Below, piece by piece: positions 53,685 through 59,929 of a stretch of DNA of 64,000 nucleotides. This DNA is from Anaerobacillus alkalidiazotrophicus. Lineage in GTDB: Bacteria > Bacillota > Bacilli > Bacillales_H > Anaerobacillaceae. Under the pieces are notes generated by a model. It made no database searches and was not told the origin of the DNA. It saw only the letters and a program-made list of their open reading frames with translations. The DNA lies in contig NZ_MLQS01000030.1 of assembly GCF_001866055.1 (NCBI RefSeq), positions 63,500 to 127,499 on the forward strand, read 5' to 3'. Position 1 is the stretch's first letter. Each line of letters starts with the position of its first letter. The translations under genes and the position numbers were made by a program.

Positions 53685-53839
53685 TGTAATAATAAAGTTC
53701 TGTAGAAAAGTTCACGGGCTTTTCACGAAACGACTATTATATACTTGCAGGAATGGCTGTAGTATCTCTATAATAGTTTTAGAAAAAGTTATTTCAGTTT
53801 CATTATAATAAAAATATGATGTAATAAGGAGACAATTGA

Positions 53840-54376
53840 ATGAAGAAAAAAATCTTAGCAGCTTTTTTTCTATTGCTTGTTGTAGTAATTGCTGGCTGTA
53901 ATGGTGGCGAAGATACACAAGAAACAGAAACAGTAACGTTTAGTAAAGAAGCCTTCGATATTTCACTTTTAGATAATACGGAAAATTTTGTTAACATTAG
54001 CCCTGAAGGAAAAACAATTTATGCATACTTTACAGGAGTTGGCTGACAAATTTGCATCACTCAGCTAGTTGAGCTGAATAAATATAGTAATGATGAATTG
54101 CAAGGTGTAAAACTCTATGGGATCAGTTTATCGACGCCTGAAGAACATGCTTATTTACAGGAGGTATTTCCTCTTGACAATTTCGAGTTTTTGACGGATT
54201 ACCAAGGTGAATTTGGTCAAAAATTTGGTTTTCTTGATTTAGATGGAAATCAGGTTGTTAGGTACGAAAGAGGTTATGTAGGTGTTAATCCTGAAACAGA
54301 AAACATGGTCGTGGAAATAGACTATTTAATTGGAGAGAAGATCAACGAAGTTTTGAAAAAAATGGAAGAATTATAA
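53840..54376 (+). CDS. Thioredoxin-fold redoxin lipoprotein with an in-frame TGA, probable selenoprotein
   Basis: Read through TGA at 54044-54046 (codon 69), one frame runs 178 codons. It starts with a signal peptide and lipobox (VVVIAGCNGG), then IYAYFTGVG-U-QICITQLVEL, where U marks the TGA. The TGA occupies the first position of a U-x-x-C redox motif (UQIC), exactly where related AhpC/TSA and thioredoxin-like proteins have a catalytic Cys. The frame after it is undamaged and reads like a redoxin (LYGISLSTPEEHAYLQEVFP, GQKFGFLDLDGNQV). The part after TGA has no start codon with a ribosome site of its own. ATG 53840 follows AAGGAG. A SECIS-like hairpin lies just behind the TGA. Alternative: a single Cys-to-stop mutation in an otherwise intact gene. 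Confidence 0.65.
54044..54085 (+). promoter_or_regulatory. Candidate bacterial SECIS element
   Basis: TCAGCT (54061-54066) pairs with AGCTGA (54072-54077) around the loop AGTTG. The loop starts 20 bases after the TGA and has G in its second position, both within the range described for bacterial SECIS hairpins read by SelB. Confidence 0.5.
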
Positions 54377-54384
54377 AAGTTAGA

Positions 54385-54420
54385 AGAAGCGGTAACGGTT
54401 AATGTTATCGCTTCTTATTA
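54385..54420 (+). terminator. Terminator after the redoxin gene
   Basis: GAAGCGGTAAC pairs with GTTATCGCTTC (one G-U pair) around GGTTAAT; a T-rich but interrupted tract follows. Confidence 0.75.
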
Positions 54421-54529
54421 TTATAGAAAGTATAAAATTTTTTTAGTGAAAAGCTAACTATCTGCCTGCAGCTCATTTTAGGGATCGAGAGTAAGGAGTT
54501 TGAGGCTTTTCTTATTAGAAGGAGGAAAT

Positions 54530-55240
54530 ATGAAACCAATTATGGCTCATAGAGGTTGGTCCAGCAGGGCACCTGAGAATACTTTAGCTGCAATTAAGTT
54601 GGCTATTGATGAAAAGTGGATCCAATCGATTGAATTAGATGTACAGCTAACCAAGGATGGCGTACCAGTCATGATTCATGATTTTCGCTTGGAAAGAACG
54701 ACAAATGGAATTGGCTTTGTAAAAGATCTATCCTTAAAAGAACTTAAAAAGTTGGATGCTGGAACCTGGTATTCACCAAAGTATCAAGATGAAAAAATTC
54801 CTACTTTGGAAGAAGTACTTCAGCTTTGTAAAGGGAAGAAACGTTTAAATCTTGAATTAAAAACAGCAGGTAATATGTATAAAGGTTTGGCAAATAAAGT
54901 TGTTCAGTGCGTTCAAAATATGAACATGGATCTAGAAGTTGTGATAACGTCTTTTGATCATGAGGAAGTAAAAAGGGTAAGAGAGCTTACTTCATGTATT
55001 CAAACAGGTTTAATTATTGTAGGAAACCCTACCTTACTCAATGAACAGTTGGAGCATGTCGAAGCTAATACAATTTCTATCTCATTTCCCTTTTTAACGA
55101 AGCCTTTTGTAGATAGCCACCTAGCAAAAGGAAGGAAAATTGTTGCTTGGACGCCAAATTCAGCTCAAGAAATTGAATATGTTAAACGACTGTCAGGAAA
55201 AATAGAGGTTTGTACAGATTACCCGGAGAGAGCATTATGA
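54530..55240 (+). CDS. Glycerophosphodiester phosphodiesterase
   Basis: It splits glycerophosphodiesters such as glycerophosphocholine into glycerol-3-phosphate and an alcohol. The GDPD signature is IMAHRGWSSRAPENTLAAI with SIELDVQLTKDGVPVMIHDF, giving the catalytic histidines and metal-binding Glu/Asp. No signal peptide, so it acts inside the cell. ATG 54530 follows AAGGAGG; the earlier TTG has no site. At 236 aa it matches the YhdW/UgpQ type. It is monocistronic. Confidence 0.92.
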   Translation: MKPIMAHRGWSSRAPENTLAAIKLAIDEKWIQSIELDVQLTKDGVPVMIHDFRLERTTNGIGFVKDLSLKELKKLDAGTWYSPKYQDEKIPTLEEVLQLCKGKKRLNLELKTAGNMYKGLANKVVQCVQNMNMDLEVVITSFDHEEVKRVRELTSCIQTGLIIVGNPTLLNEQLEHVEANTISISFPFLTKPFVDSHLAKGRKIVAWTPNSAQEIEYVKRLSGKIEVCTDYPERAL

Positions 55241-55780: not shown

Positions 55781-55980
55781 AGATAAAAATACAAAAAACT
55801 ACTTTGGTATGTAACTACGATTGGTAAAAGACTAATAAATGACTACATTTATTAAAGAGTCTACAGTCAAATCTACTAAAGATTTATTACGCGCGCGTAA
55901 ATCACTTATAAAAATAGATTTAAATAAAGCATAAGCTATGAAGTTAAAGACTTCTTTATGAATTAATGGAGGTGGTATTT

Positions 55981-58536
55981 GTGAAAGTTAATAGAAGGAA
56001 TTTTATTAAATTATCAGCTGTAAGTGGTCTTTTTGTAGCAGGAGCAAGTCAAACAAAGCCTGCGTTGAATGCATTTACCAAAAATACTGAAGCTGCAGCT
56101 AAAAACGAACCACAAGGTGAATGGATTGCAAGTACTTGTCAAGGCTGTACAGCTTGGTGTGCGGTTCAAGTGTATCGTATTAATGGGCGAGCCACAAAAG
56201 TAAGAGGAAACCCAAATGCAAAAGCAAATCATGGACATTCCTGTGTTCGTTCACACCTTGCTCTTCAACAAGTGTATGATCCAGATCGTGTAAAACAACC
56301 GATGAAGAGAACGAATCCCAAAAAAGGTAGAGATGAAGATCCTGGTTTCATACCTATCTCTTGGGAAGAAGCAATGGATATAATCGCAGATAAAATCATG
56401 GATCTTCGTAAAAGAAATGAAACTCATAAGTTTTCAGTATGGCGCGGACGTTATACCGCACTTAACGGTATTCTTTACGGTAATATGCCAAAGATTATTG
56501 GTACACCAAATAATGTTTCTCACTCATCGATCTGTGCGGAAACAGAAAAACACGGCCGTTACTATACAGAAGCGTATTGGGGATATGCCGATTATGACCA
56601 TGAAAATGCTTTTTACGAGTTAATGTGGGGAGCTGATCCAATTGCCTCAAACCGTCAAGTACCTCATACTGCAAGCTTATTTGGTAAATTAAAAGATCAA
56701 GCGAAAATAGCAGTAGTTGATCCAAGGTTATCAACTACTGCAGCCAAAGCAGATGAGTGGTTACCGGTTATCCCAGGTGAAGACGGAGCGTTAGCGATTG
56801 CGATTGCACACGTATTATTAACGGAAGAACTTTGGTATAAGCCATTTGTAGGAGATTTTAAAGATGGTGTAAATCGTTTCGAAGCGGGTCGAACTGTTGA
56901 TAAAGAAGATTTTGAAGAAATCCAAACACACGGATTAGTCAAATGGTGGAACATCGCTCTGAAAGATGCAACTCCAGAATGGGCTGCTGAGCGCAGTGGA
57001 ATTCCAGTAGAACAAATATATCGAGTGGCAAGAGACTTCGGTCGTGCCGCACCGAGAGCAATTTCTTTCATGTCACCCGGCTCGAATATGGTCGTTCGTG
57101 GTGGATATACTGCACAAGCAATGGCAGCTTTAAATGGATTAGTAGGATCAGCTGATAATGTTGGAGGAGTAATTTGTGGTGGCGAAAGCTGTCCAGTAAA
57201 TAGTTTCCCAGACTTTGAGAAATATATAGATCCTATTGCTGCGAATGGTAATAGCATGCCACGTGCTGATTTTGGCGGAAGAAAATTAGAAATGCCAGCG
57301 ATGAATGCAGGTAATTCTGGTGGGATCAAGCCAACAAATACAATAGCCGACTCAATATTAAACGAAGATCCATATAGTTTGGAAGTAGTGATGAGCTACT
57401 GGACGAATTTCAACTATAGTAATCAGGGGACAGAGCGTTGGGATGAGGCATTAGCTAAATTACCATTTATGGTACACATGACATTAAACCCAGCAGAGCA
57501 AACACACTTTGCCGATATTGTCTTGCCTGTACCACACCACATGTTTGAGCGTTTGAGTGCCGTTCGTGGAAGTAATGGTAATTTATACAGACATTGTCAT
57601 ATTCAAAATGAAATTATCGAGTCACCTTTTGACGTAAGAATTGATGAAACAGAGGTTCCGTGGATGCTAGGTGAAGCATTAGAAAGAAAAGGATTCTCTA
57701 ACCTTATTGATTATTTCCGCAACGAGTTTGTGGATCCAGAAACGGGTAAAAAACCTACAAATGGAAAAGAATTTAATGAAATTGCAACAAAAATATATAC
57801 TCAACCATTATGGGATCCAACAATTGAAAAACAAGGTGATGTCATTAACGGCTGGGAAGAGTATAAAAAGATTGGAACGTGGAACTCAATTCCTTATCGC
57901 TTCCGTCAAAAATGGAACGGTAACTGGGGAACTGAAACAGGACAGTTTGAATTCTATAGTGAGACATTAAAGAAAGCCTTAGAAGCCCATGCAGAAAGAC
58001 ATAATGTAAATGTAGATAAAGTGATGGAAGCAACAAATTATACCGCACGGGGAGAGTTAGCGTTTGTTCCTCACTACGAACCAGCCTACCGTGTTGGGGA
58101 TGAAAATGAGTATCCACTTATTTTCTCTGATCACCGTTCAAAATTAAATCGTGAAGCTCGTTCAGCTAATACCTCATGGTATCAAGAATTTAAAGATGCT
58201 GATCCAGGGGATGAAGCATGGGACGATGTAGCGAAAATTAATCCAATTGATGCGAAAAAGTTTGGAATTGAAAATGGTGACATGATTAAGATTACTTCAG
58301 CAACAGGCTCAATCACTGTCAAAGCAAAGCTATGGGAAGGTACTCGTCCAGGTGTTGTAACGAAGTGTTACGGTCAAGGCCACTGGGCTTACGGTCATAT
58401 CGCATCTCTAGATCGTAAAAAGCAAATTGCTCGTGGAGGAAACAATAACACAATTTTAGCACCTGTTCATGAAGCACTAAGCGGAAGTGGTGCAAGACAT
58501 GGTGGCCAATCAAGAATTAAGATAGAAAAAGTTTAA
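55981..58536 (+). CDS. arrA: Respiratory arsenate reductase, molybdopterin catalytic subunit (ArrA)
   Basis: It reduces arsenate to arsenite as terminal acceptor, on the outer face of the membrane. The twin-arginine signal NRRNFIKLSA is at the N-terminus. A [4Fe-4S] motif C-x2-C-x3-C-x27-C follows (C53, C56, C60, C88). The Mo ligand is C185 in SHSSICAETEK. Around it R157, Y158, H181, S182, K190 and Y202 keep the spacing of the substrate-pocket residues I remember for Shewanella ArrA. The stretches RYYTEAYWGY and VKWWNIALKD are conserved ArrA wording. GTG 55981 is chosen because GGAGGTGG is 8 bases upstream; ATG 55966 overlaps it. At 851 aa it is full length. The close relatives for selenite or polysulfide are alternatives. 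Confidence 0.85.
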   Translation: MKVNRRNFIKLSAVSGLFVAGASQTKPALNAFTKNTEAAAKNEPQGEWIASTCQGCTAWCAVQVYRINGRATKVRGNPNAKANHGHSCVRSHLALQQVYDPDRVKQPMKRTNPKKGRDEDPGFIPISWEEAMDIIADKIMDLRKRNETHKFSVWRGRYTALNGILYGNMPKIIGTPNNVSHSSICAETEKHGRYYTEAYWGYADYDHENAFYELMWGADPIASNRQVPHTASLFGKLKDQAKIAVVDPRLSTTAAKADEWLPVIPGEDGALAIAIAHVLLTEELWYKPFVGDFKDGVNRFEAGRTVDKEDFEEIQTHGLVKWWNIALKDATPEWAAERSGIPVEQIYRVARDFGRAAPRAISFMSPGSNMVVRGGYTAQAMAALNGLVGSADNVGGVICGGESCPVNSFPDFEKYIDPIAANGNSMPRADFGGRKLEMPAMNAGNSGGIKPTNTIADSILNEDPYSLEVVMSYWTNFNYSNQGTERWDEALAKLPFMVHMTLNPAEQTHFADIVLPVPHHMFERLSAVRGSNGNLYRHCHIQNEIIESPFDVRIDETEVPWMLGEALERKGFSNLIDYFRNEFVDPETGKKPTNGKEFNEIATKIYTQPLWDPTIEKQGDVINGWEEYKKIGTWNSIPYRFRQKWNGNWGTETGQFEFYSETLKKALEAHAERHNVNVDKVMEATNYTARGELAFVPHYEPAYRVGDENEYPLIFSDHRSKLNREARSANTSWYQEFKDADPGDEAWDDVAKINPIDAKKFGIENGDMIKITSATGSITVKAKLWEGTRPGVVTKCYGQGHWAYGHIASLDRKKQIARGGNNNTILAPVHEALSGSGARHGGQSRIKIEKV

Positions 58537-58568
58537 TAGATCGTTAAAAACGTACGGAGGTGACGGTT

Positions 58569-59252
58569 GTGGCTAAAAATTATGCAATGACAATTGACCT
58601 ACAATCATGTATTGGTTGTGCAGCATGTTCAGTTGTATGTAAAAATGAAAACAATACAGAACCAGGCATGAATTGGTCTCATCACATTCATAATACTACG
58701 GGTAAATTTCCAAATGTAAAATATGAATATATTCCAACATTATGTAATCACTGTGAAAATGCGCCATGTGTGAAAGCTTGTCCGGTAAAAGCGATGTATA
58801 AAGACGAAAATGGCTTAACTTTACACAACGCGGATAAATGTATCGGTTGTAAAAGCTGTATGGCGTCCTGTCCTTATGGAGTTATCTGTTTTAATAAGAA
58901 AGATCCACACCAATATTGGAATGAAAAAGAAGCGTGGAGTGAATTATCAGCGACACCTGCTGAAATTAAAGAGAAAATTGGTACACCAATCCCTTATTAT
59001 AATCCTGAGCGTGATTTTAATTATGAAGCCATTCGTTACCGTGGGATTGTTGAAAAATGTCAACTTTGTGATCATCGGCTAGATCGTGGTGAACAACCAT
59101 ATTGTGTTACTCGCTGTCCAGCAGAAGCGAGATATGTAGGAGATTTAAATGATCCAAACGATAAAATTCATGAACTATTAAGGCATGATCATAAAGGGTT
59201 ACGAGAAGATCTTGGAACAAAACCAAAAGTATTTTACTTAAGAAGCTTCTAA
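58569..59252 (+). CDS. arrB: Arsenate reductase electron-transfer subunit, four [4Fe-4S] clusters (ArrB)
   Basis: It wires ArrA to the membrane quinol-oxidising subunit. Four cysteine groups are visible: CIGCAACSVVCKNENN, CNHCENAPCVKACP, CIGCKSCMASCP and CQLCDHRLDRG followed by CVTRCP. It has no signal of its own and should be carried out through Tat bound to ArrA. GTG 58569 is chosen because CGGAGGTG lies 6 bases before it; GTG 58560 overlaps. At 227 aa it has the usual DmsB/PsrB/ArrB size. It follows arrA by 32 bases. Confidence 0.88.
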   Translation: MAKNYAMTIDLQSCIGCAACSVVCKNENNTEPGMNWSHHIHNTTGKFPNVKYEYIPTLCNHCENAPCVKACPVKAMYKDENGLTLHNADKCIGCKSCMASCPYGVICFNKKDPHQYWNEKEAWSELSATPAEIKEKIGTPIPYYNPERDFNYEAIRYRGIVEKCQLCDHRLDRGEQPYCVTRCPAEARYVGDLNDPNDKIHELLRHDHKGLREDLGTKPKVFYLRSF

Positions 59253-59293
59253 AATAAACAAACTAACTAGAATAGTAGGGGAAGTGACTAAGT

Positions 59294-59929
59294 ATGGGAG
59301 AGAAACTAGGAGTTTTTCAACATAAGGCAAACCTTTATAAAGTGTTGTCTGAATTATTTAACAAGCCGAATCAGGATTTGCAAGTGTTGTTCGAACCATT
59401 AAGAAATAGTCTACAAACTCTTTACCCTGACCTTGTCACAGACGGTAAAGAGCTAGAGAATGAGTTCAATAGAATATTTGAACAAGATGAAGAATTAACA
59501 ACATTAGCAGTAGAACATGCAAAGTTGTTTATTGGACCTTTTGATGTACTTGCACCACCCTATAGCTCTATTTATCTAGAAAATGGACGTCAGCTTCAAG
59601 GGGAATCCACTACGTACGCTGAACAAATGTATCAAGAAGCTGGCATTGTCATGTCAAAGGACTTCAAGGATGTTCCTGATCACATTAAAGTGGAGCTTGA
59701 GTTTATTTATTACCTTTACTTTCAATATGTTCAAACGAATGAACTGTCATATTTAAACTTACTTACGAAGTTTATTCATACTCATTTAAGTAGGTGGATA
59801 CTACCGTTTAAAGAACAAATAAACAAAAGAGGAAATCTAGATTTCTATAAAAAACTAGTAGATTTAACTGCTAAAGTAGTTATGTGTGAACGTGAAGAAT
59901 TACATCCACAAACATCAATAAATAATTAA
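59294..59929 (+). CDS. arrD: TorD/DmsD-family chaperone for the molybdoenzyme (ArrD)
   Basis: An all-helical cytoplasmic chaperone that holds the apoenzyme during cofactor insertion and before Tat export. The family pattern is visible: LYKVLSELFNKPNQDL, then EHAKLFIGPFDVLAPPYSSI with YLENGRQLQGEST, and DFKDVPDHIKVELEFIYYLY. At 211 aa the length is normal. It sits in the operon behind arrB, a usual place for ArrD. Confidence 0.85.
   Translation: MGEKLGVFQHKANLYKVLSELFNKPNQDLQVLFEPLRNSLQTLYPDLVTDGKELENEFNRIFEQDEELTTLAVEHAKLFIGPFDVLAPPYSSIYLENGRQLQGESTTYAEQMYQEAGIVMSKDFKDVPDHIKVELEFIYYLYFQYVQTNELSYLNLLTKFIHTHLSRWILPFKEQINKRGNLDFYKKLVDLTAKVVMCEREELHPQTSINN

Follow-up and report, generated by a model that had tools for sequence, protein, structure and literature searches.

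Why would a gene that is intact on both sides of an in-frame TGA keep that codon, and what would its product do? The question is raised by positions 53840..54376 (forward strand) of a 64,000-nucleotide stretch of the Anaerobacillus alkalidiazotrophicus genome, hereafter the window, where a frame of 178 residues contains a single TGA at 54044..54046 (codon 69) followed by Q-I-C, i.e. U-Q-I-C (U-x-x-C, or UxxC) if the codon is read as selenocysteine (Sec, U). The comparative evidence argues, about as firmly as comparative genomics allows, that the locus encodes a selenoprotein. The explanation that we favour as a whole, with a probability of roughly 0.85, is that this protein is a lipid-anchored thiol:disulfide oxidoreductase acting through Sec69 in the manner of TlpA, with copper-binding clients in part of the family.

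The frame, the position of the TGA, the U-Q-I-C motif and the integrity of both halves, all described in the initial annotation, were borne out when the window was read again. The hairpin that it reported also stands, as a 6-bp stem (54061-54066 / 54072-54077) around the loop AGTTG (54067-54071), but it does not start 20 bases downstream: 14 nt lie between the TGA and the stem, and 20 nt between the TGA and the loop. A single occurrence of the pattern TGA..TGY..CARCTNGTNSAGYTG was counted in the window and none in 100 shuffles, and UxxC was found in none of the 10 other TGA-split window frames that pass a simple length filter. Residues 1-20 (53840..53899) read as a lipoprotein-type signal peptide with the lipobox IAGC at its end, and Cys20 (53897-53899), the residue that would be lipidated, is invariant in 55/55 aligned rows. 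Among the genomes compared, the nearest is that of Anaerobacillus alkalilacustris (G001), which has 33% of sampled words in common with the window and carries a homologue 90% identical to the window protein, with the same TGA.

Conservation of the TGA and of the hairpin is a signal far above chance. A first protein search of 397 genomes of the order, a sample taken from a larger group, gave 54 loci with one TGA. A profile (A1) built from 37 Sec proteins, the window protein included (24-59% identity to it), then retrieved 79 loci in 75 of these genomes (E <= 2.8e-44), each with exactly one TGA; every locus was read, and the TGA-x-x-Cys motif and the hairpin after it are present in 79/79. The 75 genomes span 17 family labels. 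The next-ranked match (L081 in genome G307, E 1.6e-33) is a further family member that keeps its TGA and hairpin but has a frameshift ahead of them, either a decaying gene or an assembly error, and beyond it lies a gap in E-value down to 1.4e-18. Eleven of the non-TGA matches at this level and weaker were fetched and rejected as orthologues; from their motifs we take them to be CPVC Prx-like, AhpC-type or BCP-type proteins, and one that had been flagged with one TGA and one TAA is actually an intact AhpC-type frame. A UxxC frame was likewise present in none of the nine non-TGA loci of the first search. The A1 search scored the nine best candidates per genome with a profile made from Sec members alone, and a divergent cysteine (Cys) form could escape it. 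Within the genus, the same TGA is present in six of the seven Anaerobacillus genomes searched, the seventh being 62% complete, and a sister strain with plain Cys, which would point to damage in the window alone, was not found among them. Of 398 genomes sampled across the phylum, two matched, both from the same order. Plasmid records gave no match, so that a plasmid-borne gene was rejected, and six viral contigs that fit the DNA pattern did so by chance, a related protein being found in none. Four genomes (G002, G119, G243 and G386) have two Sec copies each; in G243 and G386 the second one belongs to a separate tree branch with a TTYTU site.

The hairpin itself (54061..54077) looks selected as an RNA element of the bacterial selenocysteine insertion sequence (bSECIS) type. 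The published bSECIS model has a loop of 3-9 nt, a stem of 4-16 bp, a G in loop positions 1-2 and 16-37 nt from UGA to loop (PMC13188914); the window hairpin fits this geometry with a loop of 5 nt, a stem of 6 bp, a G at loop position 2 and a spacing of 20 nt. Across a covariation set of 55 rows (50 distinct), seven stem pairs show standard pairing in 98% of cells, with GC, UA or CG at the outer pair, GC, AU or GU where the Gln75 and Leu79 codons pair, and AU, GU, GC or CG at the pair that closes the GU apex. Double-sided changes occupy 41 cells, where shuffles average 11.2, and all slid registers score far lower. In a wider set the Gln75-Leu79 pair is standard in 78/78 rows, the apical pair in 77/78 and the outer pair in 70/78, and the two remaining rows, read separately, keep all three. 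The Leu79 codon is CTG or TTG in 55/55 rows versus 27% elsewhere in the same genes, the Leu76 codon is CTN in 55/55 versus 59% elsewhere, and Gln75 CAA always comes with Leu79 TTG (6/6; Fisher p 3e-6, the rows not being independent). The stem pairs thus covary at largely synonymous positions, which suggests selection on the RNA. In four loci (L108, L116, L157 and L158) Gly replaces Val77 and the loop starts with G-G instead of G-U; since the published model also permits G-G (PMC13188914), this change points to selection on the RNA and not on residue 77. Some measures weigh on the other side: the minimum free energy of the window hairpin, -7.4 kcal/mol, misses the published prediction filter of <= -7.5 kcal/mol (PMC13188914) by 0.1 kcal/mol, and two of the five covariation measures, the pairs changed on both sides (3 versus 2.6 shuffled) and the extra pair types (7 versus 6.5), are no higher than in shuffles. 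Four of the seven stem pairs show no variation at all. Taken alone, the folding energy is ordinary (z -0.9 to -2.55 according to the stretch folded; ensemble energy -7.51 to -7.84 kcal/mol).

The machinery for Sec insertion accompanies the gene. selB scores above cut-off in 179 of the 397 genomes and in 75/75 of those with the TGA gene (hypergeometric 2e-31, kinship ignored), and in the sampled selB-negative genomes the family was not found, rather than being present with Cys. Relatives of the window genome in the genus Anaerobacillus have all four components: selB in 7/7 genomes, tRNA-Sec above the gathering score in 7/7 (best matches 58.6-62.1 bits, next <= 42.3), and selA and selD in 5/5 genomes searched, the best selD match carrying its own TGA in each. 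tRNA-Sec is the weakest of these four signals, as 5 of 14 control genomes reach the gathering score too. A second selD with one in-frame TGA occurs in two of the five genomes (G001:C1:266126-267043 and G003:C1:3632932-3633849), and G005 has two equal-scoring tRNA-Sec matches (G005:C1:3587722-3587814 and 3725088-3725180). From the comparative evidence and established Sec biology, SelB and Sec-tRNA would bind the hairpin, Sec would be inserted at the TGA, and the product would be exported and lipid-anchored at the outer face of the membrane. The invariant lipobox Cys, the Sec machinery of the genus, the conserved, covarying hairpin and an orthologue of another lineage that has Cys and no hairpin (described below) thus lend support to the original suggestion of a secreted, lipid-anchored selenoprotein.

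The mature domain is predicted to have a peroxiredoxin-like fold, its best structure matches being PrxQ/BCP proteins (Foldseek, VIA-align), and TlpA, ResA and PrxU chains are absent from the 50 matches listed by either program, although they may match beyond these. All 37 representatives match PF00578 (AhpC/TSA; E <= 0.01, best 4.3e-21), with the window protein at 24.7 bits, just below the gathering score of 26, and all 37 match PF08534 (redoxin; E <= 0.01). The ResA model matches 20 of the 37 weakly (best 8.8e-6; cut-off scores were seen for eight proteins), no NCBIfam model scores above cut-off for the window protein or for seven further proteins (the database protein P0012 included), and PF02630 (SCO1/SenC) was reported neither for the window protein nor among the eight families that the 37 representatives hit (E <= 0.01). 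In the alignments, Sec69 falls on the Thr/Ser of the peroxiredoxin motif, Cys72 (54053..54055) on the peroxidatic Cys, and Arg144 (54269..54271), invariant in 55/55 rows, on the conserved peroxiredoxin Arg. Sec69 and Cys72 form the sole conserved redox pair of the mature domain. We infer that the protein is more probably a thiol:disulfide reductase than a peroxidase: Sec69 would be the nucleophile that reduces disulfides of other proteins outside the cell, as TlpA does. In part of the family its clients would likely be SCO and the CuA subunit, whose Cys pairs it would reduce while cytochrome c oxidase is being assembled. The main rival, to which we give a clearly minor chance, is an exported peroxidase in which Cys72 or Sec69 attacks peroxide and its partner resolves through an intramolecular U-C bridge. 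Several facts tell in its favour and against a TlpA-like enzyme, namely that sequence and fold are nearer to peroxiredoxins (best matches PrxQ/BCP) than to TlpA/ResA, that Cys72 takes the place of the motif Cys and that the Arg is retained. The motif Pro and Thr/Ser, however, are replaced by invariant Thr65 and Sec69, and the conserved neighbours described below are oxidase-assembly genes, not peroxide-defence genes.

Public annotation shows the subfamily cut short or with tryptophan (Trp) at the Sec codon. A search with A1 of 5.8 billion proteins (E <= 1e-20) gave 35 matches, 10 of full length and 25 shorter (24 of these with 91-112 residues; eight of the 25 were read), the short ones beginning after the TGA. 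Named matches come from Fictibacillus, Mesobacillus, Cytobacillus, Halalkalibacter, Alkalihalobacillus, Alkalihalophilus and Anaerobacillus. Nine of the ten full-length proteins have Trp at the Sec site; in the tenth, P0012 from Fictibacillus gelatini, the residue is Cys. The nine Trp proteins would fit a TGA that is read as Trp or simply read through, but all of them (P0002-P0007, P0010, P0011 and P0013) lie on contigs of <= 3118 bases and probably reflect a gene caller that reads TGA as Trp. Moreover, TGA is a normal stop close by in the window, where it ends the gene at 54500-55240, the residue pairs with Cys in UxxC, one orthologue has Cys, and selB is in 75/75 genomes with the TGA, which makes this reading very improbable. 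Still harder to credit is a true stop in a decaying gene or between two short peptides, for which the short database proteins and an internal TTG start in the window gene may be cited, but against which stand the conservation of both halves in 79 homologues with the same TGA, the co-occurrence with selB and the covariation at largely synonymous positions; on conservation and selB co-occurrence we reject both readings.

Returning to the selenoprotein, its Cys form in another lineage deserves description. A gene 99% identical to P0012 lies in genome G796 (locus L141), which we take as F. gelatini; its codon at the Sec site is TGT and the hairpin region is without pairing. In a tree of 56 rows this Cys form is nested among Sec forms, grouping with the Fictibacillus-type Sec proteins (support 100/97), and among the 34 genomes of the family that contains G052, the TGA form occurs in 15, the Cys form in one and no match in 18. 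Among the best 120 of 1165 SelB-like proteins none is named for F. gelatini, which is weak evidence for a loss of selB in that species. Prokaryotes rarely exchange Sec for Cys, and the documented cases concern mainly FdhA and SelD (PMC13188914); the F. gelatini gene seems to add another, with codon and RNA element changed together. The family thus appears almost locked to Sec, with one observed escape to Cys in which the SECIS was erased too.

A possible clue to the clients comes from gene neighbourhoods (about 5 kb per side) at 40 loci: the window, L011 and 38 from a hand-picked set of 40, in which a strict motif filter had missed two that were later read as TGA forms. In nine of these (L092-L098, L112 and L113; family labels f3, f35, f42 and f45) the Sec gene follows CtaG and SCO genes, which serve copper delivery to cytochrome c oxidase, on the same strand with close spacing, and in L098 and L113 a YtkA-domain gene lies between the SCO and Sec genes (the Pfam assignments come from single examples, L092 for SCO and CtaG, and L113, L109 and L098 for YtkA). 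The same nine loci also share a further, presumably argC-like cluster downstream, so that one ancestral arrangement may explain the whole set. In the Fictibacillus-type loci L099 and L100 the Sec gene is followed after 115 nt by a lipoprotein gene, and that of L099 has a cupredoxin domain with a C-x3-C...H..M pattern, which we take to resemble a CuA site. The caa3 oxidase of Bacillus subtilis is served by CtaG, Sco and CtaK, a YtkA-domain protein (PMC13344008), and in Bradyrhizobium japonicum ScoI and subunit II of cytochrome c oxidase (COX II) are reduced by TlpA (PMC6696091). Given these precedents and the CtaG, SCO and YtkA neighbours, we tentatively propose a role at the copper sites of the oxidase in part of the family, and it is tempting to speculate that in many bacilli a dedicated selenoprotein, anchored on the outside of the cell, maintains in reduced form the thiols with which SCO and the CuA subunit bind copper. 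If so, selenium supply would be tied to the assembly of an aerobic respiratory oxidase. Two findings count against this proposal. The CtaG-SCO arrangement was not detected in 31 of the 40 neighbourhoods, those of Anaerobacillus included, and, while some protein passes the SCO1/SenC cut-off in 7/7 Anaerobacillus genomes (102-111 bits in five besides G001), the single match in G001 (90% complete) is weak and partial (25.6 versus 22.8 bits, E 2.9e-5). A CuA role therefore need not be general, and the idea that every family member has it was rejected, G001 having no convincing SCO.

How far is the protein new? UxxC selenoproteins with an AhpC/TSA-type domain (PF00578) are already catalogued, Prx-like thiol:disulfide oxidoreductases with UxxC or UxxU being tabled in two surveys (PMC9312934, PMC13188914), so that the kind is known; what remains of the novelty claimed in the initial annotation is the exported subfamily. 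With the tabled Prx-like proteins the bacillus group shares the domain and Sec as first residue of UxxC; compared by description with these, the Geobacter-type WP_010940744.1 included, it is set apart by a lipoprotein signal, by its occurrence in one order in our samples and by the near absence of Cys forms. The Redoxin family selenoprotein (PF08534; PMC13188914), also compared by description, has UxxC and the redoxin domain in common with it. PrxU, a Sec peroxiredoxin, shares the peroxiredoxin-like fold and an active-site Sec, whereas in the bacillus protein Sec takes the Thr position and Cys the peroxidatic one, opposite to TxxU. The TlpA/ResA thiol:disulfide reductases share a membrane anchor and an outer-face redox pair spaced by two residues; in contrast to them, the bacillus protein has Sec for the first Cys, a lipid anchor, a fold nearer PrxQ and weak matches to the family models. 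In the open-licence papers searched we found no description of an exported, almost wholly Sec-bound subfamily or of a copper link: words starting with 'bacill', 'lipoprotein' or 'firmicutes' are absent from the main text of PMC13188914, and in PMC9312934 'lipoprotein' is absent and a bacillus is named for selenite reduction only. Survey tables keyed to domains may still include such sequences. A count of Bacillales selenoproteins in 2006 gave three (PMC1794560). The present data contribute an exported subfamily with members in 75 of the 397 genomes sampled from one order.

Around the gene, an AAGGAGA resembling a ribosome-binding site lies at 53826..53832 (forward strand), as read from sequence, and terminator-like hairpins flank it on both sides, the one directly 3' at 54384..54416 (forward strand) being a consensus match. 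Further on, at 55966-59929, the window holds respiratory arsenate reductase-like genes with a TorD-like chaperone gene. The ArrA-like protein scores 1084.8 bits (cut-off 1600) and matches the solved ArrA at E 3.5e-289, and the ArrB-like protein scores 305.8 (cut-off 450); of six further Anaerobacillus loci compared, three (L011, L085 and L086) likewise have an ArrA-like gene close to the Sec gene.
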